NCBI GenBank assembly: GCA_017470505.1
Contig: JAFUYO010000013.1
Location: forward strand, 186,001 to 250,000
DNA length: 64,000 nt
Direction: 5' to 3'
Source of the DNA: Butyrivibrio sp.
Lineage (GTDB): Bacteria; Bacillota; Clostridia; Lachnospirales; Lachnospiraceae
Shown here: positions 883 to 33,389 of the stretch, piece by piece
How positions within the stretch are numbered: the stretch's first letter is position 1
Layout of the letters: the number at the start of each line of letters is the position of its first letter
Notes under the pieces: generated by a model
What the model was told of the DNA's origin: nothing
Seen by the model: the letters and a program-made list of their open reading frames with translations, nothing else
Databases searched by the model: none
Translations under genes and position numbers: made by a program

Positions 883-3276
883 TCAGTTTTTCTTTTCCTT
901 TAATGTTTTCATTTTGTTTTCGATGTCAACAATTATTTTCATGAGCCTTCCCTCGTTGTCTTTGGCAAATCTGAAGGCTTTTTTCTCAGCATCTGTAGGA
1001 GCACTCTCAGGGTCCTTCCAGAAGCGGGATGCTTTAAGCTTCTCTATGGACATATAATGATTTATAGCTCTGTTTCGCGTTTCCCCTAATTCCACTCTGT
1101 CATTATTTCTCCGAATTTCATCCTCATATCTGGAGAGTGCGCGCTCACTCCACATTTTGAGCGTGTTTCCGTAGCTGTCCGTAAATGCCTTTCGCCTCTC
1201 TTTATAGGCATTGAATTCTTCCAGATCAACATTTGTTTTCAGATTTCCATACAGATTGTTCTCATATAGCTTCTGTTGCCTTTGAGACATGGATGGTCCA
1301 TTCATGAACTTGCTCTTTTCCATATCCCCTGAATAAAATTCTGCATCATTCCACGTTGCGCCTCCATACACAGATGCAAGTGTCTGTTCGTGCCCGTCAC
1401 CGGCTGCAAAATAGGTATTCGTTTCACGGCCATATTTATGCCTGATAAGATTTACATAATCTCTGTAATATTTAATTTCCCTGTCTGACTCATTGTTCTT
1501 AAAGTCAAAGAAAGTTCCGTTGATATCATATCCAATTAACTGTGTGATATCCTGTGCACAGTCTGAATATACAGTAAACAGATCACCGTAGTGATACATG
1601 ACTTTCAGGAAATCCTTAAAACTCAGCTGTGACGGCAGTGCTCCAAAGGTATTCATGAAACTTTTTAACGTGATATGAAGATATTCTTTAAACTTTTCTA
1701 CACCTTCTTTAAAGTCCCTGTTAAGCTTTTTAACCTTTGCCGAATTCTTGTCAAGGTTCTTATTTTCAGGAAGCTGCGGCGCTGCCATCTTGTACATCAT
1801 CTCGATGATATCATTGGTTCCCATAAAGGCCGTCGTCCACTTGCTCCAGGAGTTAAGTATCCTTGAAAAATTAAGTCCCTTGATTTCATAGTCCATGTAA
1901 GGATTTTTGAGCTCAAGATTGCCAACTCCAATGATCCCGGCCTGAGTAAGCTTCTGCCTGATCTCTCCAATGTCAGGACGATTTGATTCATTCATAAGAG
2001 CTTCTTTTTTGCGGACGTTATTATCTATCTCATTCTGTTTGAGGTTCTCGATATTATACTCATCGGTACAGTTCTCTCCTCCCAGAAACATCAGCTTCGC
2101 TCTCTCACCGCCGGTAAGCTTTATATTATTGGCATCAAGCCTGATGCCTCCCGCAAGATAGTCCATGTGGCAATAGGCTTTTTCCAGGTACTGCTTCTGT
2201 TCATCGGGATCAGTCAGTGTAAGAGCCTTCTGATACAGTTCCCTTGACATGTCATTTTTAAAGTGAAGATCGGGAATCGCTTTATTTTTGGCAAAACTGT
2301 TCAGGCCGATGAAGTTCCTTCCCAGAACATAGCTGTTCAGGAGCTTTTCAGCCACGGCGCGCTGCTCATCGGTTGTTTTTTCATCTATCTTCATTGACAG
2401 CTCGTCGTCGTAGTGAGTCCTGTAATAATCATCATTGATGAGCTCTTTTCGTGAGAGGTAATAATTTGCCGCGAAGGTAAGCTCCTCAAGGCGCACTGTC
2501 ACGGCTTTTTGAAGTTCTTCGGTAAGGCTCTCCAGGTACTCGGGGTTACTTGCAAGGAGCCTGTTAAAAGCTCCCGCGTAGCTCACCACTGCTTCCAGCT
2601 TGAATGCGTTTTCAGCAATGCCGCTGTCTGTAGTAAAGTCAATGCCGGAGATATCGAGTGCAAAGAACTGCTTTGTCATGTAATCCAGTGCTTCTCTCCT
2701 GTCCCTGCCCAGCATCTGACCGCTCTCAAGATCCTTGCCGGTTCCGATGTAGTTGTCAAGGAGCCTTGCGTTTTCCTCCTCATTTTCAACCATGAAAACA
2801 GAAAGATCATGAAAATCCTCTATGCTGCAGCCATACTTTCTTCCGCCCATTGCCTGCACCATCAGCTCGTTCTTCTTGGACCCGAACCTGTTTGCGGCCT
2901 CATTAACTGCCTTGGAGTTCTTATCTTTAATGTAGAGCCTGGAATTTGCGTTACCTATCTTGCTGTTTCTCTTTTCCTCGTTGTACTTTGAAGAAAACTT
3001 GGAAGCATATACACTTTTCAGAGTTTTCTTGTCAGGAAGCTTTTTGACCTTGCGGCCCTTGGTGACGCTTTTCATCTTAAGAAGACTCTTTTTGAGGTCC
3101 TCATTGCATTTTTGCAGATCGTCTCCGCCATTCTTTTTATTTTTGTCTGCCATGAGATGATTAGCATCTTCTTCATGCACGGCATAGTTGTCAATGATAT
3201 TATCCTGCTTCAGTGCATTTACGAACACACCCTGATTGTTTTCCTGCTTGTCCTCAAACCTGTTCTTCGGTATCAA
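883..3276 (-). CDS. large helical protein of unknown function
   Basis: I do not recognise the family. The protein is about 797 aa, highly charged and predicted mostly helical, with no signal peptide or membrane segment. The frame opens at a TTG at 3282, but AGGAGG at 3285-3290 is too close to it; the TTG at 3276 (reading IPKNRFED after it) has an 8-nt spacer and is the better start. The C-terminal third resembles the C-terminus of the 1816-aa protein at 23518-28968: a DIIEMMYKM/DELIELLYHL block, a TFGALPSQ/TYGRLLSQ block and a QDITQLI/QDLTQLI block in the same order. The gene looks visibly more AT-rich than the neighbouring htpG. A promoter at 3322-3351 and a terminator at 844-880 make it a single-gene unit. 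Confidence 0.85.
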   Translation of the reverse strand: MIPKNRFEDKQENNQGVFVNALKQDNIIDNYAVHEEDANHLMADKNKKNGGDDLQKCNEDLKKSLLKMKSVTKGRKVKKLPDKKTLKSVYASKFSSKYNEEKRNSKIGNANSRLYIKDKNSKAVNEAANRFGSKKNELMVQAMGGRKYGCSIEDFHDLSVFMVENEEENARLLDNYIGTGKDLESGQMLGRDRREALDYMTKQFFALDISGIDFTTDSGIAENAFKLEAVVSYAGAFNRLLASNPEYLESLTEELQKAVTVRLEELTFAANYYLSRKELINDDYYRTHYDDELSMKIDEKTTDEQRAVAEKLLNSYVLGRNFIGLNSFAKNKAIPDLHFKNDMSRELYQKALTLTDPDEQKQYLEKAYCHMDYLAGGIRLDANNIKLTGGERAKLMFLGGENCTDEYNIENLKQNEIDNNVRKKEALMNESNRPDIGEIRQKLTQAGIIGVGNLELKNPYMDYEIKGLNFSRILNSWSKWTTAFMGTNDIIEMMYKMAAPQLPENKNLDKNSAKVKKLNRDFKEGVEKFKEYLHITLKSFMNTFGALPSQLSFKDFLKVMYHYGDLFTVYSDCAQDITQLIGYDINGTFFDFKNNESDREIKYYRDYVNLIRHKYGRETNTYFAAGDGHEQTLASVYGGATWNDAEFYSGDMEKSKFMNGPSMSQRQQKLYENNLYGNLKTNVDLEEFNAYKERRKAFTDSYGNTLKMWSERALSRYEDEIRRNNDRVELGETRNRAINHYMSIEKLKASRFWKDPESAPTDAEKKAFRFAKDNEGRLMKIIVDIENKMKTLKEKKN

Positions 3277-3321
3277 TTCCAATTCCTCCTTATGTAGAAG
3301 TTTTTTCTGCTCTCAATTATA

Positions 3322-3648: not shown

Positions 3649-5943
3649 TTACTGCGCAAGGATCATCATGATATCATTGCTCCTTGCGATGAACTTACTC
3701 ATGGCTTCTCCCTCGAGAGGCGCATTCTGAATGCGGGCCAGGTCGTAGAGCTGCTCGCATATCATTCTCGTGTTCTTGTCGTCCTGGTTCTCCATCACAT
3801 ACTCAACAAGAGGATGGTTTGCATTGAGGATCAGGGTCTGACCTTCATTTCCGAAGTCGCCCATGCCCATTCCGTTTGCGGCATACATCTTCATCATCTC
3901 GGCCATACGCCTTGATTCCTCGGATACAGTGAGGATTGAGGATGTCTTCTTGTCCTTGAGCTTTTCGAGCTTGACGGTCAGCTTATCGTTCTTGAGGGCT
4001 TTCTTGAGCTTCTCTGAGATCTCTTTCTCTTTCTCCTCGAGTTCTGCCTTGGCCTTCTTGCTGGTCTTGGACATGAAGGTGTCTGTGAGGTCGGCATCGA
4101 TCCTCTTAAAGCGGATGCCCTCGTTCTTTCTCTCAAGCTGCTCCATGAAAGGTACATCGATGTTGTGGTTCATGATGAAAGCATCCATCTTCTGCGCCCT
4201 GAACATCTTGATGTACTGGCTCTGCTGCTGCTCGTCGGTTACGTAGTAGATAGTGCGGGGCTCCTTGTCCTCTTCCTTGTCATCATCAGATGTTGCCCTG
4301 TCGCTGTCTGAGGTTACGGCTCCCTCATCGACTACCTCGGCTTCAACCTTGTTGCCGTTCTCATCTACTGCGCCGCCTGAAGCATTATTCTCAGCTCTCT
4401 CACCTGCACTGCCCTCAGAAGGCTTGTTCTCTGTGCTCTTTGAAGCTCCCTCATCTGCACTCTCTGAAGGCTTGTTCTCTGCGCTCTCGGAAGCTACCTC
4501 GTCTGTGCTGTCCTCAGAGGTCTTGTCCTCTGCGCTTTCTTCTGCCGCGCTCTCGGAAGTCTCTTCTTTATCCTCTGCCTCAGCAGCTGCCTTCTCGGCC
4601 TCCCTGTTGATCTGGAGAGCCTCGGGTGTTGTGAGGTACTTGCCGTCGAGGTTCTTGAACAGGATGTAGTCCGTCATCTTCTCGCAGAACTTGTCATCCC
4701 TCAGGCACCCGTACTTGATGAACGGACTGATGTCGTCCCAGTACTTGTCGTAGTTCTCCTTGTCAGTCTTGCACAGGCCCGCAAGCTTCTCAGCTACCTT
4801 CTTGGAGATGTACTCGGAGATCTTTTTAACAAATCCGTCGTTCTGAAGGGCAGATCTTGACACGTTAAGCGGAAGATCAGGGCAGTCGATGACGCCCTTT
4901 AACAGCATCAGATACTCGGGGATAACTTCTTTTATATTGTCGGCGATAAACACCTGGTTGTTGTAGAGCTTGATCGTGCCCTCGATGGACTCGAACTCCA
5001 TGTTGATCTTGGGGAAGTACAGGATTCCCTTAAGGTTGAAAGGATAATCCATGTTCAGGTGGATCCAGAATAAAGGCTCCTTATAGTCCCTGAATACCTT
5101 CCTGTAGAACTCCTTGTACTCCTCTTCGGTGCAGTCCTTGGGTGTCTTGGCCCAGAGGGGATGTGTGTCGTTCAAAAGCTCCGGTCTTCTCTTTATCTTG
5201 TACTCGAGCTCAGGCTCCTTGTCCTCTCCCTCTTTCTTCTCAGGGTGAACCTCCTCGATAACAACGTCAGAATCGAGCTTCTCAGAGGCCTTGATGGTCT
5301 CTGTTCCGTCCTCATTCTCCCTTGAGAGATATATCTCATAGGGCATGAATGAGCAGTATTTCTGTATGACTTCCCTCGCCTTGTACTCGTTGCAGAACTC
5401 GAGGCAGTCCTCAGACAGGTGGAGCGTTACAGTCGTGCCAACCTCTGTCTTGTCGCCGTCCTCCATCTCAAAATCCGATCCGCCGTCACAGGTCCAGTGC
5501 ACCGCTGGACCACCCTTGCACGATAAGGTGTCGATGTCAACTGAGTCAGACACCATGAAGGTCGAGTAGAATCCGAGTCCGAAGTGACCGATGATCTGGT
5601 CGGCGTTCGCCTTGTCCTTGTACTTGTTCAAAAAGTCTGTTGCTCCTGAAAATGCGACCTGATTGATATACTCCTCAACCTCATCGCTGTTCATACCTAT
5701 ACCGTTATCGGTGATCTTAATGGTCTTCTCCTTGTCGTTCAAGACGATATCCACGCGGGGCTTGAAGTCGGCGGGAAGCTCGTACTCACCCATCATGTCC
5801 ATCTTGCGGATCTTGGTGATCGCATCGCATGCGTTTGAGATCACTTCTCTGTAAAAAATATCATGGTCCGAATACAGCCATTTCTTGATGATCGGAAACA
5901 TGTTTTCACTGTTGATTGAAAGATTACCTTTTTTTGAAGCCAT
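3649..5943 (-). CDS. htpG: HtpG, Hsp90-family chaperone with an acidic repeat insert
   Basis: ATP-dependent cytosolic chaperone, 764 aa from the ATG at 5943. An AAAGGAG box precedes that ATG; the frame opens at 5991 without support. The GHKL ATPase motifs are present: SNACDA, DNGIGM and GHFGLGFYSTFMVSDSV. Middle and C-terminal dimerisation regions follow. Typical bacterial HtpG is about 625 aa. The surplus is an insert at about residues 441-563, rich in Ser, Glu, Asp and Ala, with a 16-residue imperfect repeat (ENKPSES...ENKPSEG) that is a 48-bp repeat in the DNA. The flanking parts of the middle domain are intact. A perfect CIRCE operator sits upstream, so HrcA control is likely, unlike B. 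subtilis where htpG lacks CIRCE. Confidence 0.97.
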   Translation of the reverse strand: MASKKGNLSINSENMFPIIKKWLYSDHDIFYREVISNACDAITKIRKMDMMGEYELPADFKPRVDIVLNDKEKTIKITDNGIGMNSDEVEEYINQVAFSGATDFLNKYKDKANADQIIGHFGLGFYSTFMVSDSVDIDTLSCKGGPAVHWTCDGGSDFEMEDGDKTEVGTTVTLHLSEDCLEFCNEYKAREVIQKYCSFMPYEIYLSRENEDGTETIKASEKLDSDVVIEEVHPEKKEGEDKEPELEYKIKRRPELLNDTHPLWAKTPKDCTEEEYKEFYRKVFRDYKEPLFWIHLNMDYPFNLKGILYFPKINMEFESIEGTIKLYNNQVFIADNIKEVIPEYLMLLKGVIDCPDLPLNVSRSALQNDGFVKKISEYISKKVAEKLAGLCKTDKENYDKYWDDISPFIKYGCLRDDKFCEKMTDYILFKNLDGKYLTTPEALQINREAEKAAAEAEDKEETSESAAEESAEDKTSEDSTDEVASESAENKPSESADEGASKSTENKPSEGSAGERAENNASGGAVDENGNKVEAEVVDEGAVTSDSDRATSDDDKEEDKEPRTIYYVTDEQQQSQYIKMFRAQKMDAFIMNHNIDVPFMEQLERKNEGIRFKRIDADLTDTFMSKTSKKAKAELEEKEKEISEKLKKALKNDKLTVKLEKLKDKKTSSILTVSEESRRMAEMMKMYAANGMGMGDFGNEGQTLILNANHPLVEYVMENQDDKNTRMICEQLYDLARIQNAPLEGEAMSKFIARSNDIMMILAQ

Positions 5944-5996
5944 AGTCCTCACTCCTTTGTTTCTGTTTATAAACGGAGCTGTTCGCTCCAAAAACT

Positions 5997-20783: not shown

Positions 20784-21773
20784 TCACTCCATGTACATAT
20801 TGGTGCTGAGGTATTTCATGCCGTTGTCGGCGAGGATGGCTACTATGTTCTTGCCTGCGTTCTCCTGTCTCTTTGCGAGAAGCGTTGCCGCGTATATAGC
20901 GGCGCCTGCTGACTGGCCGAGGAATACTCCGTCTGCTCTTGCTATCTGCCTGCCGGCTGCGTAGGCATCTTCGCCCTTTACGTCTATGCACTCATCGTAG
21001 TCAAAACCAACGATGAAGGGCGCTTTGAGCGCATCCGGGAATCCCTCGTCGCCAAAGGGTGCAATGCCATCGATTGTCTGGGGATTTTCGCCTACTCCCG
21101 CGCGAGACTCCTTGTCCGCCTGGACAGCGACAATCTTTACATCCGGATTCTTTTCACGGAAAAACTTTGCGAGTCCCGTTATGGTTCCAGCCGTTCCCGG
21201 AGCTGAGACGATGATGTCAACCTTCCCGTCAGCATCCTCCCAGATTTCAGGCCCTGTGTGCTCATAGTGCACTCCCGGGTTTGCGGGGTTGGCGAGCTGG
21301 TTGATGAAGTAGTGCCTCGTTGGCTGTTCATCGCAGTACTTCTGAAGTGCCTCCTGATAAAACTCTGTGCTGAAGGTTCCGTTCTGAAGCGCCTCTGCTA
21401 CCCCGGGCGCCTCCGGAAGGAACTTCAATGTCGCGCCGTAGGCTTTCAGCATTGTCTGTCTCTCAACCGACTGCCCGGGCTCAAGAAATACCGTGAGCTT
21501 GTATCCCCTCGATGCCGCAAAGGCAGCGAGCCCGATACCTGTATTTCCCGATGTGTTCTCGACGATCGTATCGCCGGGCTTTAAGAGGCCGTCCCTCTCA
21601 GCGGCCAGTATCATGTTCAGCGCCGCCCTGTCCTTTACAGAGCCCGACGGGTTGAAGTACTCAAGCTTTCCGAGTATCGTAGCCTTCAAGTCATTTTCCT
21701 TTTCGTAGTTGACAAACTCAAACAGTGGTGTATGCCCTACGAGTTCTGCGATGTTTTTTACAATCTTTCCCAT
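20784..21773 (-). CDS. cysK: cysteine synthase (O-acetylserine sulfhydrylase)
   Basis: 329 aa from the ATG at 21773 (GGAGG 7 nt upstream; the frame opens 6 codons earlier). It is a PLP enzyme making cysteine from O-acetylserine and sulfide. The Schiff-base Lys lies in NPSGSVKDRAAL, the substrate loop is ENTSGNTGIGLA, and the phosphate loop is PGTAGTITG. Length fits the family. No sulfate assimilation genes are adjacent. Cystathionine beta-synthase-like or O-phosphoserine-using relatives cannot be excluded from sequence alone. Confidence 0.93.
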   Translation of the reverse strand: MGKIVKNIAELVGHTPLFEFVNYEKENDLKATILGKLEYFNPSGSVKDRAALNMILAAERDGLLKPGDTIVENTSGNTGIGLAAFAASRGYKLTVFLEPGQSVERQTMLKAYGATLKFLPEAPGVAEALQNGTFSTEFYQEALQKYCDEQPTRHYFINQLANPANPGVHYEHTGPEIWEDADGKVDIIVSAPGTAGTITGLAKFFREKNPDVKIVAVQADKESRAGVGENPQTIDGIAPFGDEGFPDALKAPFIVGFDYDECIDVKGEDAYAAGRQIARADGVFLGQSAGAAIYAATLLAKRQENAGKNIVAILADNGMKYLSTNMYME

Positions 21774-21920
21774 TTTAGTATCCTCCGTCATCTATAATTA
21801 GTGTGAATCTTTATACTCGATAACGGAATTGTATTCCGTCATCGGTATAAACTCATGCACACGACCGCATAATGAAATGTGAAGCTACGTCGCATGCGGC
21901 CTGCGCTAATTGCCATGCGA

Positions 21921-23285
21921 TCAAGCGCTATGATATGGGTCTTCGGGATACCCCGAAATCTCCCTGTTATCACTTAAATAGTTGTAATATGTCAAAAGAG
22001 CTGATGCCTCACCGCTGCTTCCAACATAAAGCCCTGCCCAGTTCTCAACTTCATTCGGCGCATGCCTGTTCCAGGCGCTGTACCAGCATCTCTTATCGTC
22101 CTCCGAAACCGAGTCTCCGATGAGCTTGACTGCCGCCTCCTCTGCGGCCCGCAGGTACTTCTCATCCCCGGTGAGGTTGTGGATCTCTATGAAGTGCTCG
22201 AGCATCCCGGCCGTTCCGCAGCAGTAGTTGTACGTGTGCCAGTAGCCTTTTGAGTGGATCTTCGGCGCGCAGGCTCTCAGCACTCCATTTGTGAGTTTTA
22301 ATACCCAGGAGAGATATTCATCCTCTCCCGTCACCCTGTACAGCTGGTAAAACAGCCTTGAAGTTCCTATAGGGCCCTGGCAGAGCCCCAGATAGTGCAT
22401 GTCCTTCCGGTAAGGGTCGTTGTACCCTATAAGTGCCGCCTCAGAGTCCGGAGTAATATCTGCTATCGATTTTATGTAGTCCGCAGCCTTCCTTGCTCCG
22501 TCCAGAAACTTCTCATCTTTTGTGATTTCAAAAATCTTTGCAAGTAAGAACCCCGTCCCTGCAGTTCCGTAGAAAAATCCGGGAAAATACCCCTTTTCTC
22601 CGAGCCCGAAAGCCACAGAGTCCATGTTCAGCCACCTTGAGCCGCTTGGCGCATCATCCGCATTTTTCAGGATCCTCTCCATGCCGCTCACTGCGACATC
22701 GAGGTACTTTTTGTCATGCGACTTTTCATATATCCATATCAGGAAGAGAAAAAGTCCACCGTCCGAAAGAATTCCTCCCACGCCGCTGAAAAAAGCTCCG
22801 TCGCTGTCGTATTCAGCTGCACCTGCAACATCATCGGCAATCTCCTTAGCATATCCAAGGAAAGCTTCATCCCTTGTCTTTTCGTGGATCTCGTATGCCA
22901 CATAGGCACATCCGGCGGGACCGTTGTATAAGCCGCCCGGGATTCCCTTAAGCGTTCCCTCTCCCTGATCCGCAAGCTCCTTCTGCGAACGCCTTTTTCT
23001 GTAGCAGAAATCTATACCGCCCTTCGCCTTATCAAGATACGCGGCATCCTTGGTGACTTCATACAGTCTCAGGAAGAAGAGCGCTATCCCTGCCGCCCCG
23101 CCGTAGAGGCTGACATCAGATACAAGCACAGCTCCCGGGTCCGTCTCCTTGCCGGGGATGACATCCCAGCTTATCTCTCTCCCGTCACGGTGTTCATAAG
23201 CCGATAAATGCTCCGCCACCTGTAGCACCGCCCGCAGCGTCTTTTCTTTATCAAGTTCATCGAATTCGTCTATCCATCTGCTCAT
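21921..23285 (-). CDS. LanC-like cyclase-fold protein with a CCG motif
   Basis: 454 aa with the repeated GxxG helical hairpins of the LanC alpha/alpha barrel: SLYGGAAGIALFFL, GLYNGPAGCAYVAYEI and FYGTAGTGFLLAKIF. The zinc-site motifs appear as LGLCQGPIG and NYCCGTAGMLEHF. Classical LanC enzymes use Cys, Cys, His (CHG); here the third ligand would be Cys (CCG), as in ProcM-type LanM cyclases known for high reactivity and broad substrate range. LanC enzymes form thioether rings; LanC-like proteins without precursors may have other roles. No precursor peptide, dehydratase or ABC exporter is nearby. Cysteine synthase is the next gene downstream, 147 nt away. Confidence 0.8.
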   Translation of the reverse strand: MSRWIDEFDELDKEKTLRAVLQVAEHLSAYEHRDGREISWDVIPGKETDPGAVLVSDVSLYGGAAGIALFFLRLYEVTKDAAYLDKAKGGIDFCYRKRRSQKELADQGEGTLKGIPGGLYNGPAGCAYVAYEIHEKTRDEAFLGYAKEIADDVAGAAEYDSDGAFFSGVGGILSDGGLFLFLIWIYEKSHDKKYLDVAVSGMERILKNADDAPSGSRWLNMDSVAFGLGEKGYFPGFFYGTAGTGFLLAKIFEITKDEKFLDGARKAADYIKSIADITPDSEAALIGYNDPYRKDMHYLGLCQGPIGTSRLFYQLYRVTGEDEYLSWVLKLTNGVLRACAPKIHSKGYWHTYNYCCGTAGMLEHFIEIHNLTGDEKYLRAAEEAAVKLIGDSVSEDDKRCWYSAWNRHAPNEVENWAGLYVGSSGEASALLTYYNYLSDNREISGYPEDPYHSA

Positions 23286-23517: not shown

Positions 23518-26500
23518 TTATTTCTTTTTCTTCTTGTCGGAGGTTTCGCCGGCCTTGCCATCCTTCTTGGTGCCTGAAGCGCCCTTCTTGCTGCCGGCCT
23601 TGGAGCCTGAAGCGGCCTTCTTACCGGTTTTGGAAGAAGTAGCCTTGTGGCTTCTTACAACGGGCTGTTCTTCGTCGGTCTGGCCGGGAAGGTTGAACAT
23701 TCCGAAGAGCTTTCCGCTCCAGCCCTCGGCCTGGGATCTCTTGTGCAGGTCCTCGATGTAGGCTTTCTGTTCTTTCGCAGAAAGTGACGGTCCTCCGACG
23801 TCTTTGGCTGTTGCAAAGTTGAACACCTTTATGCCCTTCTGGAAGTACTCGGTGCAGAAGTTCTTTCCAAACATCGGCTGGCCCGGCACATACCCTTCAA
23901 TTCCGTTCCCTCCATAAGCCATGCTGAAGCCCCCTGAAATGATGCAGTTATAATAATCTGACAGCTTCAAAAATTCCTTATCCTGCTCGTTTTCGGGATC
24001 GAAGTACCTCTGTCCGTCCTTGATGAGCTGAGTCAGATCCTGTACAAGGGAAAAATCAGACCTCAGCCTTGATGCGCCCACAATCCTGATGACATCTTCA
24101 GGATGCATCTGGCTAAGCAGCCGTCCGTATGTAGCTTCAAGCCTCTTGAGGTGCCTGTAAAAGAGCTTTTTCACTCTTACCATGGCTATGTCAAAGTCAG
24201 CGTCAGCCTTCTCGACAGAAATCTTTTCAACCTCAACTCTCCTCTTGGGAACAAGGTGGTACAACAGCTCGATAAGCTCATCGCCGCTCATTCCTTCGGC
24301 TGCGCCCTGTCTCATGGTCTCAAAGAGTCTCGATACAACAAGGCCTCTTGTCGTCACAGTTCCCGATGCATTCTGCACATTGGCCGTCGCTATTTCAAAG
24401 GGTATTTTTTCAAAAAGCTTATCTCCAAGGTCTTCTGTTCCGGGAAGGTACAGTGCCTGATGCTTTTTCCAGTCATTCTTAAGCTTCGTCTGTGCCTCCA
24501 CAGTTCCGCCATTTGGAAGCTTTTTGGCTGCCGCGGGAGTTAAAAGGTCCTTATCGCGAAGCGGCAGGAACGGACCTTCGACCTTCATGGCCATAAGCGC
24601 CTTGTAGTCCTTCTCCTCTTCCCCGGACTCTGAAGCCTTCACATACTCATCGAGATCAAGGGACTTTACAGTCTTGTGCGCATCCGGGATATAAGCCATC
24701 CGGGTAATATCCTCAAAGCCTGCGCCGAGCTCAGCGGAATCCTTCATGACAGTGACACCCTTTGTGTGGCTCACAGACTCATTCACCTCCTGTAAAGAGA
24801 TGTTGTTAAGCTCATACCCGGTATTTTTGTCATACTTAAGGTTCTTAAACTCAGCTGTCAGCTCCTTAGGCTCCTTGAGGTCAGATATCCAGTTGATTTC
24901 GATTGTGCATCCGGTATCAACAATATCTTCCACATTCATCATCTTGGGCTTAGAGTACCCCTTTGAGTCATAAACTTCGATTTTGGCATCACGTATACTT
25001 GTGATTGTCAGATAATCGCTCTGATTGCCTTTTGTGACACAAACACTTGCGATTCCTCCGTCGTTTATGATCTCTCCAATCTTGCGCTTAAAGACATTTC
25101 TCATGTTCAGACGCTTGTGAAGATCACGCGCTCCTCTTATTCTCTCCGGTACATCCATGACAATACGATTGAGCATAACATCATTTATACCGTTTTCTTT
25201 GAGCCTGTCAAAAATGAAATCGCCCACTGCAAAAAGATTACCGTTTTCTTCCTTGCCTTTACCTGCATACTTATTGATGATTTTTACTTTCTCATCATAA
25301 GCCTTTTTATCGGTTACTTTGTCAAGCACAGCAGGGTCGTAGAGTCTGATTGCAGGTTTGTAGACGCGAAGGTCTTTCTGCTGATAACGCCTTGTAACCT
25401 TTTTCTCACCTTTCTTCCTTGCAATGAAATGGTTAAGAATTGCAGTTCCGGAGCAGGCATAGCTGTTATTTTTATCCTGCCTTTCATATATTTTTTCCAT
25501 CTTGGAAAGATCATTTTTTGCATCTGCAAAATCGGCCGTAACTCTTGTTGCATCGTCCTTAAACATCTTCCTGACGCCGCTCTGGATCTTTTCAAGTTTG
25601 GCCTTCTCTTCTTTCTCTTTGCTCTCTTCCTCTTCCCTCTTTTCTTTCTCCTTGAGTTCTTCCTCTGTAAGCTCCTTTTTCTCCTCAATGATCTCAGAGA
25701 CATCCTTCTTATCTTCCCTGATCTCAGAGACTTCCTTTGTCTCTTCTGAAATCTTAGAGTCTTCCTTAGTCCCGGAAACAGTCTCTTTTGTCTTAACCTC
25801 TTCTGCATTTATATCGAGAACCTGCCCGGCTTCAGGCGCCCTGAGATAGTCGTCGATAGGAAGAGACTTTATCTGCTTGTGGGCGTCGGGGATATATGCC
25901 ATCTGGGCAATACCCTCATAGGCAGCTCCTAACTCAGAGTCATCCTTGACAACAACGACTCCCTTTGTAAGAGAAGTGGACTCACTGTACTCCTGCTGTG
26001 TGATGTTCTTTACATCATATCCGGTCTTGGGGTCATATTTGAGGTTACTGTATTCAGCTGTAAGTTCTCCCGGTTTCTTGACATCAGAAATCCAGTTGAT
26101 ATCGACCGTATACCCCTTGGCAACAAAGTCCGAAATCTTCCACGTCCTGGGCCTTGAGTATCCACTCGAGTCGTACACCTTAAATTCTTCATTATTAACG
26201 CCTGTGATCGTCAGATAATGATCATAACCTGCATCGCCTATTGTCTTACCGATACGGACGCTCGCAACTCCACCTCCATCTATGATCTCTCCTATCTTTT
26301 GCTTAAAAAATCTTCTCTGGTTCTCAAGGAGAGTCTTATCACGCTTTTCGCTTGTGCTCTTCGGAACGCTGATGATAACACGGTTCAGCATCGCATCATT
26401 TATGCCGTTTTCCGACAGCTTGTCCATGATAAAATCGCCCAGCGCAAAAACGTTTCCGGTCACTTTCTTGCCGGCCCCGGCATAGTGATTGATACACTTT

Positions 26501-28968
26501 ACGTTGAAATCATACCCGAGCTTATCAAGTGCAAGCAGACCGGCTTCAGGGTCATAGAGTCTTATACCCGGCTTGTAAGCACGAAGATCAAACTGGTTGT
26601 AGCGCCTTGTAAGTTTCTGCTCCTTCTTTTTCCTCGCGATAAAGTGATTTAATATAGCAGTTCCCGAGCAAGCGTAGCAGTTATTTGTTCCCTGTCTTTC
26701 GTAGGCCTCATCCATTCCAGTGATATCGGTCTCAACACGGTAAACGACATTTGGAGCCTCAGGAATGGCAGTTGTTCTGTTAATATCGAGTGTCGGATCA
26801 TGGTAGTCGTAGAACTTTTTAAGCCACTCAAGGTGAAGGATGAGCTCCGGAGAAAGATCCCGATTCCACACCGACGCTGTCCTGCGGCGGCCTTCCTCAT
26901 CCACGATGTACTTTCCGCCCTGCTTCATCTCAGCCCAGTGCTTTAAGTTCCTCTCGACATAGTCGTTAAATGCTCTCTTGTCAGAAAGTTCAGGAATGCC
27001 TGCTTTTTTGAGGGCCTCGTCATGCTCCTTTTTCTCATTGATGTTGTAAATTTCTCTGAGTCTTCTGATGCCCTTCTGAAGGTTTTCCTCATTTTTCTGT
27101 CTGGCCTGCGCTATAGCATTCTCTTTCGCAATATCTGCCATGACCTCATTGTCTTTGAGCTGTTTTCCTTGTCTGGTTCTGCGAACATCTGAAAGCACCG
27201 GCACACCCGTGACGTTATCCGGAACATCGTCAACTTCTTCGATGATCCGGTTCTCATTTACCTCTTCCACTTCGGGTTCATCGTCGTCATCTGAATATTC
27301 GGACTTTGTATCTTCAATAATCCTGTTCTCTGTCTTTTCCGCGGAATCCTTTTCTTCTTTTGCCGACTCTGACTCCTTGGAATCCTTCTCTTCCTTCTTT
27401 GTATCGGTTGCAGTTTCTGTCCAAAGAACTTTTTCTCCTACAAACTTATCTTCTGAAATGTCATCGGAGGACTTTTTCTCTTCTTTTTGGGCTTCAGTTT
27501 TTTCAGCACCCTTATCGGCTTTCTTTTCTTCAAAGTCTTCCTCGTTATCAGGAAGATCTATGTTCATATTCTCGAGTCTAACCTCATGCTCTGTTGCATT
27601 CTTCTCAGGCACATGGATATTATTCTGTTGTGCTGTCTGTTCGGCTGTCAAATCCAGTTCCTCAGCATCTTCAACACTTATCACAGATTCATCCATGGAT
27701 TCAATAATATTATCATCTCCTTCGCCAGCTTCATTATAGGCTTCTTCAACGTTTGCCATTTCAGCAGCTGCAAGCTTCTCATCCCAGCCTGCGTATATTC
27801 CGAATCCTCTCACATGCTTTCCAAGCCTTTGTCCTATGTCTCCGGTAAGTATTCGAGAGTATTTGTATACTCTTTGCTTATCATCGAAAGCAAGTTCAGG
27901 GTCCTTATAACCAAAGCCAAATATCTGTCTGCATAGGTAGGGGAAGCCCTTAAATAAACTTTCAAATAAAAAGGTAGGTATGCCGGCAACACCTTTAAGA
28001 CATTCCCTGCACAGCACTCTTCCTTTGTCCACATCAGACCAGCCCTTTTTCAGATTCCATGATACTTTCCAGCGTTTCCATTTCGATGGTCTGACAGCAT
28101 TGTACATCCCGGACAGAAGTTTAAACGGTGCCTTTACAACCTTGTATGCAGCATTTAATGCATTGGCTGCAAGCATGGTTCCAAAACCAAGAGTCCTGTC
28201 AATTAGTCCTCCTGTTGCATTAATCAGGATTTTTATCCGGGTAGCCTGATTAGACAGATGACTCGCCCACCACTCATTATGTCTTGTAAGGAGTCCCGGA
28301 AGATCATCGTTCTCTCTCTGTTCTCTTCTCTTGTCTTCATACGCCTGGTTAACAAGGGCAATCTTATCAATACCGGTAACCATATTAAGCCAGGTTGGCA
28401 TGGGTCTTGAATGGTTTCTTGAGAGATACTGCATATCAAGCGATTTCTGAAGTGCTCTTCTTGAATTGGACAACCAGAATCTGCGATTATCAAATTCCAA
28501 TTTCTTTTTTACTTCCTTTACCTGTTTTAGTCTCGCCTTACCTCGTCCCCATAATGCCAGACCATTTATTCCTCCAATATACTGCTTGGCTTTGTCATAA
28601 GCATCTTCCCACAGCATCCCCAGCTGATATTGGTTTTCAGCAGAAAGTTCATTATAAACGTATGACCTCGGATCATGTATACTGGTTTCGTTGGAAATCA
28701 TTTTTACTTCATCTGTGCTACCTCCTGCACGATATCCACCTTTTATCAAACCCGCAGCCTTTAATCTTTCATGGGCCTTTGCCTTTTCCTCTCCACCTGA
28801 CATTGTAGTAATTATTCTCATATCACGTAGCTGCTGAGCTGTCAGTTCATGCATTCTTTGCTGATCAGCTTTCTTCTTTCCAACCTCAGCTTCAAGATCA
28901 CCATTCTTATCAAATAATTTGTCACGTAGAACAAGGTAATCATGAAGTGCCAGTTTCAGCTGCCTCAT
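23518..28968 (-). CDS. giant protein with tandem papain-like domains, second copy catalytically dead
   Basis: 1816 aa from the first ATG. Layout: helical N-terminal region (1-400); disordered acidic region (about 400-610); papain-like repeat 1; Lys/Glu coiled linker (about 1070-1150); repeat 2; shared C-terminal helical domain (about 1500-1740); Lys/Ser/Gly tail ending in a Lys run. Repeat 1 has RQGTNNCYACSGTAILNHF, matching papain QGxxGSCWAFS with Cys764, then His917 in GYDHYLTITG and Asp933 in YDSSGYS at papain-like spacing (16 residues). Repeat 2 has NNSYACSG (Ser1169) and QSDYLTIT (Asp1318), so both catalytic residues are lost. No signal peptide. The ATG at 28968 has no ribosome site, and the frame stays open and protein-like up to 29073, overlapping the upstream ORF. 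Function unknown: a protease, transglutaminase-like enzyme or effector are all possible. Confidence 0.88.
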   Translation of the reverse strand: MRQLKLALHDYLVLRDKLFDKNGDLEAEVGKKKADQQRMHELTAQQLRDMRIITTMSGGEEKAKAHERLKAAGLIKGGYRAGGSTDEVKMISNETSIHDPRSYVYNELSAENQYQLGMLWEDAYDKAKQYIGGINGLALWGRGKARLKQVKEVKKKLEFDNRRFWLSNSRRALQKSLDMQYLSRNHSRPMPTWLNMVTGIDKIALVNQAYEDKRREQRENDDLPGLLTRHNEWWASHLSNQATRIKILINATGGLIDRTLGFGTMLAANALNAAYKVVKAPFKLLSGMYNAVRPSKWKRWKVSWNLKKGWSDVDKGRVLCRECLKGVAGIPTFLFESLFKGFPYLCRQIFGFGYKDPELAFDDKQRVYKYSRILTGDIGQRLGKHVRGFGIYAGWDEKLAAAEMANVEEAYNEAGEGDDNIIESMDESVISVEDAEELDLTAEQTAQQNNIHVPEKNATEHEVRLENMNIDLPDNEEDFEEKKADKGAEKTEAQKEEKKSSDDISEDKFVGEKVLWTETATDTKKEEKDSKESESAKEEKDSAEKTENRIIEDTKSEYSDDDDEPEVEEVNENRIIEEVDDVPDNVTGVPVLSDVRRTRQGKQLKDNEVMADIAKENAIAQARQKNEENLQKGIRRLREIYNINEKKEHDEALKKAGIPELSDKRAFNDYVERNLKHWAEMKQGGKYIVDEEGRRRTASVWNRDLSPELILHLEWLKKFYDYHDPTLDINRTTAIPEAPNVVYRVETDITGMDEAYERQGTNNCYACSGTAILNHFIARKKKEQKLTRRYNQFDLRAYKPGIRLYDPEAGLLALDKLGYDFNVKCINHYAGAGKKVTGNVFALGDFIMDKLSENGINDAMLNRVIISVPKSTSEKRDKTLLENQRRFFKQKIGEIIDGGGVASVRIGKTIGDAGYDHYLTITGVNNEEFKVYDSSGYSRPRTWKISDFVAKGYTVDINWISDVKKPGELTAEYSNLKYDPKTGYDVKNITQQEYSESTSLTKGVVVVKDDSELGAAYEGIAQMAYIPDAHKQIKSLPIDDYLRAPEAGQVLDINAEEVKTKETVSGTKEDSKISEETKEVSEIREDKKDVSEIIEEKKELTEEELKEKEKREEEESKEKEEKAKLEKIQSGVRKMFKDDATRVTADFADAKNDLSKMEKIYERQDKNNSYACSGTAILNHFIARKKGEKKVTRRYQQKDLRVYKPAIRLYDPAVLDKVTDKKAYDEKVKIINKYAGKGKEENGNLFAVGDFIFDRLKENGINDVMLNRIVMDVPERIRGARDLHKRLNMRNVFKRKIGEIINDGGIASVCVTKGNQSDYLTITSIRDAKIEVYDSKGYSKPKMMNVEDIVDTGCTIEINWISDLKEPKELTAEFKNLKYDKNTGYELNNISLQEVNESVSHTKGVTVMKDSAELGAGFEDITRMAYIPDAHKTVKSLDLDEYVKASESGEEEKDYKALMAMKVEGPFLPLRDKDLLTPAAAKKLPNGGTVEAQTKLKNDWKKHQALYLPGTEDLGDKLFEKIPFEIATANVQNASGTVTTRGLVVSRLFETMRQGAAEGMSGDELIELLYHLVPKRRVEVEKISVEKADADFDIAMVRVKKLFYRHLKRLEATYGRLLSQMHPEDVIRIVGASRLRSDFSLVQDLTQLIKDGQRYFDPENEQDKEFLKLSDYYNCIISGGFSMAYGGNGIEGYVPGQPMFGKNFCTEYFQKGIKVFNFATAKDVGGPSLSAKEQKAYIEDLHKRSQAEGWSGKLFGMFNLPGQTDEEQPVVRSHKATSSKTGKKAASGSKAGSKKGASGTKKDGKAGETSDKKKKK

Positions 28969-29015: not shown

Positions 29016-29333
29016 TTATACCATAGTACTGGTAGCGCTCTCCATCTGCTTCATATTCTTTATTTTCTTTATTTCACGCTCTCTTAACTGTTTCTTGGTG
29101 AGCTTGCTTTCATCTACTACTTCTACTTTTTCTTTAGCCTTCTTGGCCTTTTTTACCTTCTTACCTCTTTTTGCATCAACACTTTCATTGCCGGGAGCAT
29201 TATCAAAAACAATGTCCTGACTGTTCTGAAGTGTTATGGTCTCAAGTAAATCCGCATTCTGATTTGAGCTTGTGTTAATTACAGTATTGTTACCTTTATT
29301 GCTTTTCTTTATTTGCTTATCTTTACCACCCAT
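29016..29333 (-). CDS. 105-aa lysine-rich ORF, probable N-terminus of the papain-repeat protein
   Basis: Start MGGKDKQIKKSNKGN with GAGGAAATAGACA before the ATG. The sequence is polar, then basic (KRGKKVKKAKKAKEKV), then helical (KKQLREREIKKIKN). The last ten residues (MKQMESATST and beyond) look unnatural, while the -1 frame in the same stretch continues as protein-like sequence (YEADGERYQYYGIKFQ) straight into the 1816-aa frame. The two ORFs are therefore best read as one gene with a frameshift between about 29040 and 29075. The stretch is A-rich (AAATAAAGAAAATAAAGAA), where an indel, a sequencing error or slippage is plausible. Confidence 0.7.
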   Translation of the reverse strand: MGGKDKQIKKSNKGNNTVINTSSNQNADLLETITLQNSQDIVFDNAPGNESVDAKRGKKVKKAKKAKEKVEVVDESKLTKKQLREREIKKIKNMKQMESATSTMV

Positions 29334-29366: not shown

Positions 29367-30791
29367 TTATCTTCCTGCTGCTTTTAAGATTTCTTCCATT
29401 CTTTCATCAGTCAGAACATCTTCCGGTGAGAAATCCCCGGGAATCTTGTCATTGGAAAGTCCTGCCTGAAGTCTTAGCTCCTCCCAGTCTTCGCTCGTAA
29501 CTATATCTTCCGGATGAGACTGTGCAAGATACCCCGCAAACTGCATCGTGGTGATTCCATCCGGAAATACCCTGTTTACAAGGTCACGTCCCTCTTCGCT
29601 TTCAAATGTACCAAAGATGGTGCTCTTAACATCCTTATTTTTCAGGATTATCTGATAGGCAAATCTGAAGAGCTTTAGGACTGACGAAGGATCATATCCG
29701 GGCAGGCTCCTTAATGCCTCATATCTGTAGTCTCCGTAAGAAAACCTGTGCAATAGCAAAAGTGCCTTGATCTCTCCATTTTCAACGATTGCACAGCTGA
29801 CTTCCGGGTCGAAGAATGAATAGGGCGCCGTAATAATCGATTCGTCGTAATCATTATCAAGTTTTTTGAAAAACGCACTGACAAGCTTCTTTCCATCACC
29901 ACCCAGAGCATTAAGAGACTGTACTCCGCTTACAGAGCCTTTGAGGTGAGAATTATCATCCTGGTCGGATACCTTTATAAAGAATTTCCTCCCAATGCTC
30001 ATGCTGAAATCAAAGCGCCATGAATCAAAGAAATTAGTTAAAACTGCGAATTCTTCCTTTGATTCGTCGTCAGAAAGTCTCGGTGCGTCAACACTTAAGA
30101 AAATAGCAGCCTCATCAATATCCAGAGTAAATTCGATGAGTTTGGCCATCATCATATTGCCAATTCCCATCTCCCTGAAATCCTGTGATACATATATCCA
30201 GTCAAGGCGGACATTTACCTCCTCATTTTCCTCAATATGATAGACGATAACACCGGCAGCGCAGCTCTTTTCATCAGAGAGTCTTATGGCACCCATGGCT
30301 CTTTTTCTCCCTATTATGATGTCATCGTAGTGCTCCTCAGGAATCATATCCTGAAATACTGACGCATTCCCAGGGGTAATCAGCGTCATCAGAGGCCAGT
30401 TCTCTTTTTCAAATCCGGCAATTATTGAAAGAGCCGCCTCAAGTCTGTCTCTTCCAAATCCTGTCATCGGATCGATGGTCTTTGAGAGTTCAATACAGGT
30501 ATCGATAAGCGAAGTATATAATCCCTCTGTTCCCTCAAGATCGGCCTCCTCTGATATCTCATAAAGATTTATATAAGATATCTTATCCACCAGCTGTTCG
30601 AGAAGCTCATCATCCTCACGAAGAAGTGTCGGGATATCCAGCCTCTCTTTTACATAATCAGCAAATGCCGGCTCAAAGATTTCACTCATCTCTTCGGCAG
30701 CTTCCCTGACATCATCATCAATTTCGAAGTCGTCCTCCTCGTTTATGAAGTCATATAGCTCTTTTAACTCCAGATCCATTTCATCACTCAT
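29367..30791 (-). CDS. double-GNAT-like protein
   Basis: 474 aa. The first 110 residues are acidic and helical. About residues 130-250 form an acetyltransferase-like domain with LDWIYVSQDFREMGIGN, where the Q/RxxGxG/A acetyl-CoA loop is at about 206-211. The second half (about 280-420) looks like a further, degenerate GNAT domain (ALLLLHRFSYGDYRYEAL). The second half aligns with the second half of the 281-aa protein at 32544-33389, so the two are paralogues. AGGAGG lies 8 nt before the ATG. It sits 33 nt upstream of the lysine-rich ORF and papain-repeat gene and is probably co-transcribed. The acetylation target is unknown; proteins of that operon are candidates. Confidence 0.8.
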   Translation of the reverse strand: MSDEMDLELKELYDFINEEDDFEIDDDVREAAEEMSEIFEPAFADYVKERLDIPTLLREDDELLEQLVDKISYINLYEISEEADLEGTEGLYTSLIDTCIELSKTIDPMTGFGRDRLEAALSIIAGFEKENWPLMTLITPGNASVFQDMIPEEHYDDIIIGRKRAMGAIRLSDEKSCAAGVIVYHIEENEEVNVRLDWIYVSQDFREMGIGNMMMAKLIEFTLDIDEAAIFLSVDAPRLSDDESKEEFAVLTNFFDSWRFDFSMSIGRKFFIKVSDQDDNSHLKGSVSGVQSLNALGGDGKKLVSAFFKKLDNDYDESIITAPYSFFDPEVSCAIVENGEIKALLLLHRFSYGDYRYEALRSLPGYDPSSVLKLFRFAYQIILKNKDVKSTIFGTFESEEGRDLVNRVFPDGITTMQFAGYLAQSHPEDIVTSEDWEELRLQAGLSNDKIPGDFSPEDVLTDERMEEILKAAGR

Positions 30792-30824: not shown

Positions 30825-31871
30825 TCATGCTATATTTAAAAAGTATTCCGCACTTTCATTTTCTTTTTTCTCTCTTATTTCTGTAACAAGGCCGATCTCT
30901 ACGCCTGGGTGAGAGGAATCGTACTCATTCGCGGCATCACTTATCGCCATGACTATCATGTCTTTCAGGTCGTCCATGCCCTCTCCAAGACACACCGCAA
31001 AGGCTCCCCTGTCAAGGTGTATGGGCCGCACGTCCCTTGGAAGCTCATCCCTTATGATGCCTGCAAGTGCCAGCTCGTCGCCGGATGTCTTAAAGACTAT
31101 GACGCTTCCGACATTTTCTTTGCCGCCCCGAACCTTCTCCCTGATGTAGTTTAAAAAGGCCCTGTGATAGAATCCCTGGATCCCGCTCTCATACTGCCAG
31201 TGCTCCGTCATGGAGATGAAGATGAAGATGAGTCCGCAGGTCAGTGCGATGGACGCCGCATCCACATCGAGTGTGAGCAGCAGCACGAAGTTCATGATAA
31301 ACGGTATCAGGACCGGCGCGAAATGAAAGGTCTTCATCCTGTCCGCAGAGCGGTTGTTCTTCCAGATAAGGAACCCCGAAATCAGGAAATACACGGGCTG
31401 CACCAGGGCGACCAGAAGATACGGTATCTTGGCGCTTATATAGTACTCGTAATCATACTCGAACCGGAACAGAATCCCCGTAAATAGATTTACAACATAG
31501 AGGATTATCAAAAAAGCCATAGGCACGAGGAACGGCCAGTACTTGCGCCTTAAGTGATCTGCGCTCTCATAGATCCAGAACCCCACAAACAAGAGCCACT
31601 CAAAGGTTATGAACAGGATCAGGATTTCCATAACGGTCTCCTGAATAAGGAGCAGAGTTTCAAACCCTCTTTGATTGGAAGCAAGGACGATGCTCTGGGA
31701 GGTGTTGACGCAGATATAGATTATAACGTTGATGCACATGATAAAGAATATCCTGTCGCCTGCGGTCCGCCTCATCCTGAAGCGGTCTGAGATGATCATG
31801 AAGCCGAGCATGGTCACGATCGATATAAAATCCAGATATAGGCCGATTTCAAGTTCAGTTATTTCCAGCAT
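30825..31871 (-). CDS. multi-pass membrane sensor with a degenerate GGDEF-like domain
   Basis: 348 aa. Seven or eight hydrophobic helices fill residues 1-230, with the signature VVNLFTGILFRFEYD after helix 5. The C-terminal 110 residues look like a worn GGDEF domain: the GGDEF loop is replaced by LDRGAFAVCLGEG, so cyclase activity is unlikely. It could bind a nucleotide or a partner. GAGGAAACAG before the ATG supports the start, which overlaps the end of the 231-aa sensor gene by 17 bp. It is the last clearly coupled gene of the operon that begins at 36313. Confidence 0.8.
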   Translation of the reverse strand: MLEITELEIGLYLDFISIVTMLGFMIISDRFRMRRTAGDRIFFIMCINVIIYICVNTSQSIVLASNQRGFETLLLIQETVMEILILFITFEWLLFVGFWIYESADHLRRKYWPFLVPMAFLIILYVVNLFTGILFRFEYDYEYYISAKIPYLLVALVQPVYFLISGFLIWKNNRSADRMKTFHFAPVLIPFIMNFVLLLTLDVDAASIALTCGLIFIFISMTEHWQYESGIQGFYHRAFLNYIREKVRGGKENVGSVIVFKTSGDELALAGIIRDELPRDVRPIHLDRGAFAVCLGEGMDDLKDMIVMAISDAANEYDSSHPGVEIGLVTEIREKKENESAEYFLNIA

Positions 31872-32550
31872 CTGTTTCCTCCCCGTGAAAAGCTCTGTTC
31901 ATATTCGCAACAAGCATATAGATGAGGACCACCGACAGGATAAGTGGCGTCGATGAGACGGAGGTAAAGAGTATCTCCATGACTATCCTTGAAATCAGCA
32001 GCATCAGGAAAAGAATTATTCCAAGCCTGTTGACCTTCCACAGCACAAAAACGCCTATCACCGCGTATATAAGAGTCGGTATGAAGATAAGGTTGTAGGC
32101 AGGGCCGTGCATATACTGACCCGTCGACGGATCAACACGGAAAAGAAAACCCGAAAAAAGGTTCAAAACCACCATGGCCGCCGAAGCTACAAGAGGAATG
32201 GAAAAAACCTTAAAGTTCTTTTTGACAATGTCCTCTCCCTGCGGCAGGAGGCAGCACAGATACTGCGCGATAAGAAAGCCCAAAAGCTCAAAGACAAGCG
32301 TCATCACGCTCGCGCACAGTATTGTGACAATATGGTAAAAAACCTCTTTCTCGTTGTTAAAGACTTCCACCGCAATGTCGAATCCAGCCATGAGCATATC
32401 GGATATGAGCATCGCAAAAAATATCCTGTCGAGGAGCTTTCCCCTCTCACGATAGATTTTGGTGCACTGCATAAGACCTAATAAAAGAAAACACGCAATT
32501 ATATCAAGGATTACTGTTGCGGTAGCAGTATATGAAAAACGCATCAGCAT
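31855..32550 (-). CDS. multi-pass membrane sensor without output domain
   Basis: 231 aa, with at least six hydrophobic helices and little else. It carries VLNLFSGFLFRVDPSTGQY, the same motif as the 348-aa sensor downstream (VVNLFTGILFRFE) and the LytS-like kinase (IVNLFTGYIYRIDPGTN). Members of this sensor class usually end in a GGDEF or kinase domain; this one stops after the last helix, so it may act as a partner of the 348-aa protein. Its start overlaps the end of the 281-aa gene by 7 bp. Confidence 0.78.
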   Translation of the reverse strand: MLMRFSYTATATVILDIIACFLLLGLMQCTKIYRERGKLLDRIFFAMLISDMLMAGFDIAVEVFNNEKEVFYHIVTILCASVMTLVFELLGFLIAQYLCCLLPQGEDIVKKNFKVFSIPLVASAAMVVLNLFSGFLFRVDPSTGQYMHGPAYNLIFIPTLIYAVIGVFVLWKVNRLGIILFLMLLISRIVMEILFTSVSSTPLILSVVLIYMLVANMNRAFHGEETDAGNN

Positions 32551-33389
32551 AGTTCACGCACTCCGTACAAAGAATTTTTCCCTTTTTTGCCGGGGAAGAG
32601 TTTGTTCATGATAGCCAGTGAAGCGGGGTTGTCCCGTCTTATCATAATCTTCGTGTCCTTATCGTAGTCACTGATAACGGTCCTGGCCGAGTACCTCAGC
32701 ATCTCGAGTATGTTGATCTGGGCGTCGGGGCCGTCTGCAAAAAGGACAAGGGGCATCAGTATCCCTGACGGAAAGTGGTGGATGAGAAGGAGGCCCTTCA
32801 GCTCATCGTCGGCCTTCACCCCGCAGGATAGCGTCTGCTCGTACCAGGACTTGGAGAGGGTCGATAGGTCCTCGCACAGCCCGCGCCTGCCGGCGTAGAG
32901 GCACTTCATGATGCCCTGCCTGAAGTCCTTGGCTGCCACATCCGAGAGCGGAGTGATACGGGACGAGGGTCTCTTTAGGATGACCTTGCTGTCCTTTAAG
33001 TCGTCCAGGGATAACAGCACGTCCCTGCTCTCCCTCTCAGTGACCTGAAAGCCGCGCTCTTTCAAAAGGGGCGAGAGCTTTTTCATCTCATTCGGAAGTT
33101 CAAATTGAGACTTCTTTATGCCCTCTTTTTCCATCTCGGAATCGAAGCAGTCAAAGAGATGTGCTCCTCCGGAAGAGTCCTTCAGACAGAGGTGGACTAT
33201 CTCGACCTTCGGGCTTGCGCCCTTGTCATTGGCGTTCTTGTACTCCCAGACGATGCACCCTGGCTTTTTGGAGCCGTCGATCAGCACTTTCCCGCGGTAG
33301 TACTTTCTGCCAATGCTCTCCTCTACATCCTCAGGAAGAACAGAGAGAAGCTCTTTTTTGTTGTCAATTGTGATATCTATTACTTCCAT
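32544..33389 (-). CDS. GNAT-like protein, paralogue of the 474-aa protein
   Basis: 281 aa with two GNAT-like halves. The C-terminal half (LKGLLLIHHFPSGILMPLVL...ILEMLRYSART...AIMNKLFPG) aligns with the C-terminal half of the protein at 29367-30791. The acetyl-CoA loop is not well preserved in either half, so activity is uncertain. It lies 12 nt after the DUF362 gene and overlaps the 231-aa sensor gene, so all belong to one operon. Confidence 0.75.
   Translation of the reverse strand: MEVIDITIDNKKELLSVLPEDVEESIGRKYYRGKVLIDGSKKPGCIVWEYKNANDKGASPKVEIVHLCLKDSSGGAHLFDCFDSEMEKEGIKKSQFELPNEMKKLSPLLKERGFQVTERESRDVLLSLDDLKDSKVILKRPSSRITPLSDVAAKDFRQGIMKCLYAGRRGLCEDLSTLSKSWYEQTLSCGVKADDELKGLLLIHHFPSGILMPLVLFADGPDAQINILEMLRYSARTVISDYDKDTKIMIRRDNPASLAIMNKLFPGKKGKNSLYGVRELC

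Follow-up and report, generated by a model that had tools for sequence, protein, structure and literature searches.

The stretch of DNA analysed here, referred to as the window, comprises 64,000 nucleotides of a Butyrivibrio sp. genome (assembly GCA_017470505.1, contig JAFUYO010000013.1, positions 186,001 to 250,000 of the forward strand) and contains, on the minus strand at 23518..28968, an open reading frame (ORF) encoding a giant protein of 1816 amino acids (aa). An earlier note on this DNA had described two papain-like repeats in this protein, one catalytic and one dead, and this description was confirmed: residues 746-1049 and 1151-1450 were 57% identical over 304 aa (E 2e-122), so that the likeness of the two copies is not due to chance. 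The repeats are real, although the homologous domain is a little shorter (~285–290 aa) than the length of about 330 residues first given. A second domain scan placed copy 1 at aa 746-1035 (25864..26733, minus strand) and copy 2 at aa 1152-1436 (24661..25515, minus strand). Copy 1 has Cys764 (codon TGC, 26677..26679), His917 (CAT, 26218..26220) and Asp933 (GAC, 26170..26172), all read from the minus strand, and its catalytic Cys, His and Asp/Asn and its oxyanion Gln are present and in order. At the corresponding positions of copy 2, on the same strand, Ser1169 (AGC, 25462..25464) replaces the Cys and Asp1318 (GAT, 25015..25017) replaces the His, and the third catalytic position is kept as Asp1334 (GAC); both the residues and the codons agreed exactly with those named previously. 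The spacing from His to Asp is 16 residues in each copy, as it is between His159 and Asn175 of papain.

We examined how far these residues are conserved in relatives gathered by genome searches, of which 28 domains were aligned (domain E ≤1e-10 over at least 150 model positions). Near-duplicate loci (L124, L125, L130, L131 and L133) and a fragment (L014) were dropped, and weaker copies, including three dead copies found later, stand outside this alignment. Across the 28 rows, the Cys and the His were each kept in 27, the Gln in 27 (not in L013) and Asp or Asn in all 28; copy 2 of the window giant was the sole row without Cys or His, and it retained the Gln and the Asp. The earlier note took a lack of conservation of C764 and H917 among homologues as evidence against its claim, and these counts show that both are conserved. 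Among 28 further copies that matched more weakly, the Cys was present in 21 of the 22 that span that place (Gly in L190) and the His in 24 of 26, being missing in L207 and in one L191 copy, both of them poorly matched. Loss of a catalytic residue in this domain family is thus rare, but not unique. A separate observation concerns L190:7695-13463, whose only papain-like domain carries Gly in place of the Cys but retains His and Asp, and is possibly another dead copy. Within a set of ten domains, 14 columns were invariant in the nine domains other than copy 2, which loses only those of C764 and H917 and keeps the other 12. When the other nine were compared one by one with the remaining eight as a control, they lost 0–2 of 14–16 invariant columns, never the Cys or the His.

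Pairs of this kind recur in other giants. The second domain scan found more than one copy in L084/L131, L082/L130, L078 (contig C31 of the window genome) and L088. In the first copy of L084, L082 and L078, the Cys is replaced by Thr or Ser, the His by Ala or Ser and the Asp by Arg, and this dead copy directly precedes an intact one; both copies of L088 retain Cys, His and Asp. The dead-then-active pair in the same genome as the window lies at L078:9930-11624, where the gene is seen as two ORFs of 342 and 564 aa. A tree of 26 domains requires the dead label to change twice, as forced by the branches starred on that tree, and a single change was enough in 0% of 200 bootstrap trees; if catalysis was never regained, these two forced changes indicate that it was lost independently at least twice. 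A long branch (1.85) leads to the older dead clade. Copies of this clade were 34–41% identical between genomes, compared with 38–47% for active copies, and both kinds of copy had an excess of third-position differences between genomes. The losses of the second dead clade are retained in three giants (L084, L082 and L078). The recurrence of intact-plus-dead pairs is a hint of some function for the dead copy.

With regard to fold, no Pfam or NCBIfam model claims the window giant, and PHROGs likewise gave no usable family. Pfam Peptidase_C70 matched 9 of the 28 domains and Peptidase_C39_2 matched 5, all weakly (best C70 E 5.4e-5); eight members for which the C70 score is available reached 13.1–18.1 bits, all below the curated cut-off of 19, and copy 1 of the window giant matched neither model. 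Alignments of the domain were compared as profiles using hhalign against a C70-type set (17 of 21 places) and a C39_2 set (19 of 20 loci), with two GNAT sets as controls. The 28-row alignment matched the C70-type set at 96.9% (E 2.7e-10), with Cys, His and Asp aligned, and a narrower ten-row alignment did so at 63.0% (E 9.5e-6), where the E-values are per single pair and the C70-type set is mixed, including C39-like boxes. The C39_2 set gave 6.0% (28 rows) and 0.1% (ten rows), and the GNAT controls gave at most 0.8%. Profile searches of the PDB returned chance-like matches only. The comparison with C70-type peptidases, in which the catalytic residues align, supports the papain-like assignment of the earlier note, and copy 1 is accordingly described here as a predicted papain-like cysteine peptidase domain, C70-like and with a full catalytic set.

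The giant also carries a C-terminal module (aa 1484-1774; 23647..24519, minus strand) that was found at differing positions in the giants L011, L017, L018, L079 and L114 and in a further ORF of the window at 883-3282; the giants of this family are modular. This further ORF (883..3282, minus strand, TTG start, 799 aa) is a second member of the giant family in the window, with no papain-like domain found; it is 37–42% identical over long stretches to the giants L011 and L114 and adjoins an Hsp90 gene (3649-5991). A simple hydropathy scan detected no hydrophobic 19-residue stretch in the window giant, and stretches of this length with a mean hydropathy of at least 1.6 were absent from 12 of 14 giants, being present near the C-terminus of L014 and L015. 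That the giants are mostly without such stretches fits synthesis in the cytoplasm followed by loading into particles. The ORFs L014:8549-13261 and L015:2038-6165 have a common C-terminal region with hydrophobic stretches, which could be inserted into a membrane. L016:8707-11487 has, in addition to its papain-like domain, a DCYLLSTLAG stretch in the C-terminal part, which may be reminiscent of calpains.

Beside the window giant, on the same strand, lies a gene for a GNAT-type acetyltransferase of 474 aa (29367..30791; Pfam Acetyltransf_1 26.4 bits, cf. a cut-off of 20.7; family hidden Markov model (HMM) 7.8e-33). At higher coordinates, also on the minus strand, lie genes for membrane proteins of 348 aa (30825..31871; relatives beside giants in L073 and L090) and 231 aa (31855..32550; relative beside a giant in L073), and one for a GNAT-like protein of 281 aa from the giant-partner family (32544..33389; leave-one-out HMM 6.3e-30, no Pfam match). 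The two membrane proteins and the GNAT-like gene (30825-33389) recur beside the giant in L073. Across 55 distinct matched places, a GNAT-like ORF lay within 1.5 kb of 25 of 52 domain-bearing ORFs, the window giant included. The first, stronger part of the matches contributed 21 of 27, a count that excludes nine ORFs found through the GNAT query as well as L104, which was taken by place; the rest contributed 4 of 25. Seeds for the GNAT model were chosen by position and did not include the window GNAT (29367-30791), and leave-one-out recovered 25 of 26 seeds, missing the neighbour of L012. In the window's own branch, 8 of the 9 ORFs that matched the first model at E <1e-50 have a GNAT neighbour.

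The domain thus marks giant proteins of Butyrivibrio and its relatives that form two branches, the window's own being the GNAT-partnered one. The second branch (L080, L081, L088, L089 and most of L186-L209) consists of long proteins without GNAT neighbours, mostly from genomes that lack Pvc16, and many of its domains have a CWSC or CWSV box. All 12 loci with this GNAT family and a named source came from Butyrivibrio (11 metagenome assemblies, two of which mention rumen or reticulum, plus one isolate, FCS014). FCS014 encodes the AAA, membrane and GNAT proteins together with a giant-like ORF of 873 aa that gave no papain-like match. The papain-like domain itself was found in 3 of 299 genomes of the phylum and 6 of 246 of the order, the window's own genome being counted in each; one of the phylum hits and three of the order hits come from other families, so the domain extends beyond this one. 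SpoIIE/RsbU-like phosphatases (L075:1039-2802, L076:6341-8632, L084:11076-12635, L091:13193-14998 and L107:5225-6925) seem to be repeated neighbours of giants and of the injection locus described below and are perhaps an expression switch; that of L076 was assigned with Pfam, and the others were judged by eye. A LanC-like ORF of the window (21921-23285; Pfam 4.6e-27) was considered as part of the giant system and dropped, as it had no match in the loci compared; it adjoins a cysteine-synthase-like ORF (20784-21791), the latter judged by eye.

The window genome encodes a phage-tail-like contractile injection system on contig C39 at ~40–84 kb, where sheath, tube, baseplate, tail cap and AAA genes stand in one locus; the proteins recognised were sheath, tube, Pvc16, DUF4280, Baseplate_J and AAA proteins, and a CIS13-family match lay below its cut-off (80.2 vs 370 bits). 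None of the papers found in searches of openly licensed PMC literature was seen to describe an injection system of this kind in Butyrivibrio. A papain-like domain at C39:37875 adjoins this locus. It belongs to a giant seen as two ORFs of 989 and 477 aa (L104:17779-19212 and L105:1-2437; contig C39 at ~37.8–42.4 kb), where L085, L092, L123 and L126 have one ORF of 1392–1493 aa. Among 79 genomes of the genus, Pvc16_N was found in 27, the domain in 18 and both in 14, i.e. Pvc16_N in 14 of 18 domain-positive genomes vs 13 of 61 others (Fisher p 2e-5). In a sample of 397 genomes of the family, Pvc16_N was found in 39 (38 over the cut-off), the domain in 14 and both in 6, i.e. 6 of 14 domain-positive genomes vs 33 of 383 others (p 1e-3). 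When genomes were split by the GNAT partner, a division made after the neighbours had been seen, Pvc16 was present in 17 of 18 with a GNAT-partnered giant (not G079) vs 2 of 13 other domain-positive genomes (G232 and G472; p 1e-5). Pvc16 and the domain were separated on the same contig by ~33–34 kb in G205 and G220, 36 kb in G469, 25 kb in G041, 39 kb in G366, 26 kb in G251, 41 and 46 kb in G180, and 13, 51 and 71 kb in G416. In L082, L085, L086, L092 and L105, genes for an AAA protein, a membrane protein, a GNAT and a giant stand in this order. This link to contractile injection loci favours the suggestion, made in the earlier note, that the protein is an effector.

The explanation that we prefer, with a probability of about 0.5, is that GNAT-partnered giants are injection cargo, with copy 1 as a live protease domain, copy 2 as a retained module for binding or restraint, and the GNAT-type protein as a factor that modifies or escorts the giant. 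The window protein is a modular member of the Butyrivibrio giant family, probably cytoplasmic when made, and on this explanation GNAT-partnered giants would most likely be cargo (effectors) of a contractile injection system. Copy 2 is a duplicate that has lost its nucleophile and His; it has kept the oxyanion Gln and 12 of the 14 invariant positions, and would probably bind or restrain copy 1 or the substrate of copy 1. The adjoining GNAT-type protein would probably modify or escort the giant ahead of loading; acylation of the HlyC kind is one conceivable form of such modification.

Several observations weigh against this explanation, some of them bearing on copy 2 and others on injection. A loss of two invariant positions is not by itself unusual: of the eight other domains besides copy 1, four are likewise missing two, in each case non-catalytic ones. 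Relative to outgroup G041, derived residues number 32 in copy 2 and 21 in copy 1, and copy 2 was the more derived of the two by five of six outgroups and the less derived by one. Derived changes at codon positions 1, 2 and 3 numbered 25, 22 and 48 in copy 1 and 30, 30 and 42 in copy 2, so that third-position changes in the copy 2 lineage (42 of 102) were little above a third. Because copy 2 is more derived and the third-position excess in its lineage is weak, constraint in that lineage may have been relaxed. The N-terminus of the window giant may also be interrupted: the frame of the giant stays open for 35 codons upstream of the ORF start (1851 codons in all), and a 105-aa ORF in a different frame (29016..29333, minus strand), which possibly encodes an N-terminal portion of the giant, overlaps this open stretch and ends within it, ahead of the first ATG. 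Two more papain-like giants of the window genome, one on contig C31 and one near the injection locus, are likewise split into two ORFs, and a real change, recoding or an assembly error may each account for such splits. No orthologue of the window tandem was found in the genome searches or in single-sequence scans of the genome contigs and viral contigs; a tblastn search of the giant against phages and plasmids and a scan of viral contigs with the GNAT alignment also returned nothing.

The greater divergence of copy 2, the possible frame break, the two other split giants and the lack of an orthologue in these searches would all be expected if copy 2 were a decaying duplicate without a role, perhaps inside a decaying gene. 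We consider this unlikely, as the reading frame of copy 2 is open across its full length and only 2 of 14 invariant positions were lost, both catalytic. The two copies are sisters on the tree (support 99/97), with nonsynonymous and synonymous divergences of 0.32 (dN) and 1.76 (dS); the resulting dN/dS of ~0.18 shows that the pair is constrained on average. Moreover, dead copies recur and persist in other giants.

The observations that bear on injection concern, first, the domain as a whole: 27 of the 52 domain-bearing ORFs have no GNAT neighbour (among these, L016 borders a contig end, L014 is fragmentary, and L203, L204 and L208 run up to an end of their stretch), and 11 of the 13 genomes in which all domain-bearing ORFs are of this kind lack Pvc16. 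The domain by itself is therefore not tied to injection, and the complete ORF set gives a weaker injection link for the domain overall and a stronger one for the window's branch. Even among GNAT-partnered giants, G079 has a GNAT neighbour but no Pvc16. On contig C39, the window giant (C39:209521) and Pvc16 are 137 kb apart, and so the giant's own injection link rests on its family and partner genes. The N-terminal leader motif of the giants is weak, with a held-out area under the curve of 0.48–0.77. Since delivery is something that we infer, and given this weak motif and the ORFs and genomes lacking GNAT neighbours and Pvc16, the giants might not be injected at all, serving instead as scaffolds or regulators in the cytoplasm, with genes that lie close to injection loci. 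For GNAT-partnered giants this appears improbable in light of the 17 of 18 genomes with Pvc16, the linkage to Pvc16 within 13–50 kb in several of them and the shared order of AAA, membrane protein, GNAT and giant genes.

It is similarly improbable, in our estimation, that copy 1 is a papain-fold enzyme of another kind, e.g. a deamidase or acyltransferase. Groups of the papain-like superfamily are reported to include acetyltransferases and deamidases (PMC10318531), but the nearest profile found is of the C70 peptidase type, although this argument is a weak one. Least plausible is that the papain-like domain processes the giant into modules after delivery, with copy 2 as a spacer or holder of a cleavage site, for although the giants are modular, with common modules at different positions, and the domain lies mid-protein in the window giant and some others, there is no known cleavage site or product, and cutting at the C-terminal domains of L013, L076, L082, L084, L085, L086 and L092 would free little.

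If GNAT-partnered giants are indeed cargo, a common gut genus would have injection machines that carry very large, modular proteins. The fusion of an enzyme with a pseudo-enzyme would have evolved at least twice in this genus, providing a natural test of the purpose of the dead copy, and a giant together with its GNAT partner would serve as a marker for finding injection cargo and its targets. A broader and rather doubtful proposal is that these proteins form an unrecognised class of cargo of contractile injection systems in Butyrivibrio and its relatives, comprising modular giants with their own GNAT partner, in which a pseudo-protease has repeatedly been paired with an active papain-like protease and restrains it until delivery.

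Compared with known systems, the domain resembles Peptidase_C70 (AvrRpt2-type, PF12385) and Peptidase_C39_2 (PF13529) in its Cys box with an upstream Gln, its late His and its Asp/Asn. It differs in being ~285 aa long, cf. 141 (C70) and 143 (C39_2) model positions, and in being embedded in giant proteins. The injection locus of the window genome resembles extracellular contractile injection systems (eCIS) of the PVC/Afp type in its sheath, tube, Pvc16, Baseplate_J and AAA proteins and CIS13-family match. Toxins are associated with eCIS loci (PMC8213781), and loading of PVC payloads is reported to involve N-terminal signals and an AAA ATPase (PMC11495950). Unlike PVC/Afp cargo, the candidate cargo here reaches 3483 aa, has GNAT-type partners and lies partly far from the core genes. 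The pairing of copies 1 and 2 is reminiscent of SERA5 and SERA6 of Plasmodium, where a papain-like pseudoenzyme with Ser for Cys occurs beside active paralogues, and a non-enzymatic role has been reported for SERA5 (PMC4671257, PMC5500368 and PMC8167364). This is an analogy of working and not of kinship: SERA5 and SERA6 are separate proteins of a parasite, whereas the two copies in the window are tandem domains of one bacterial protein.
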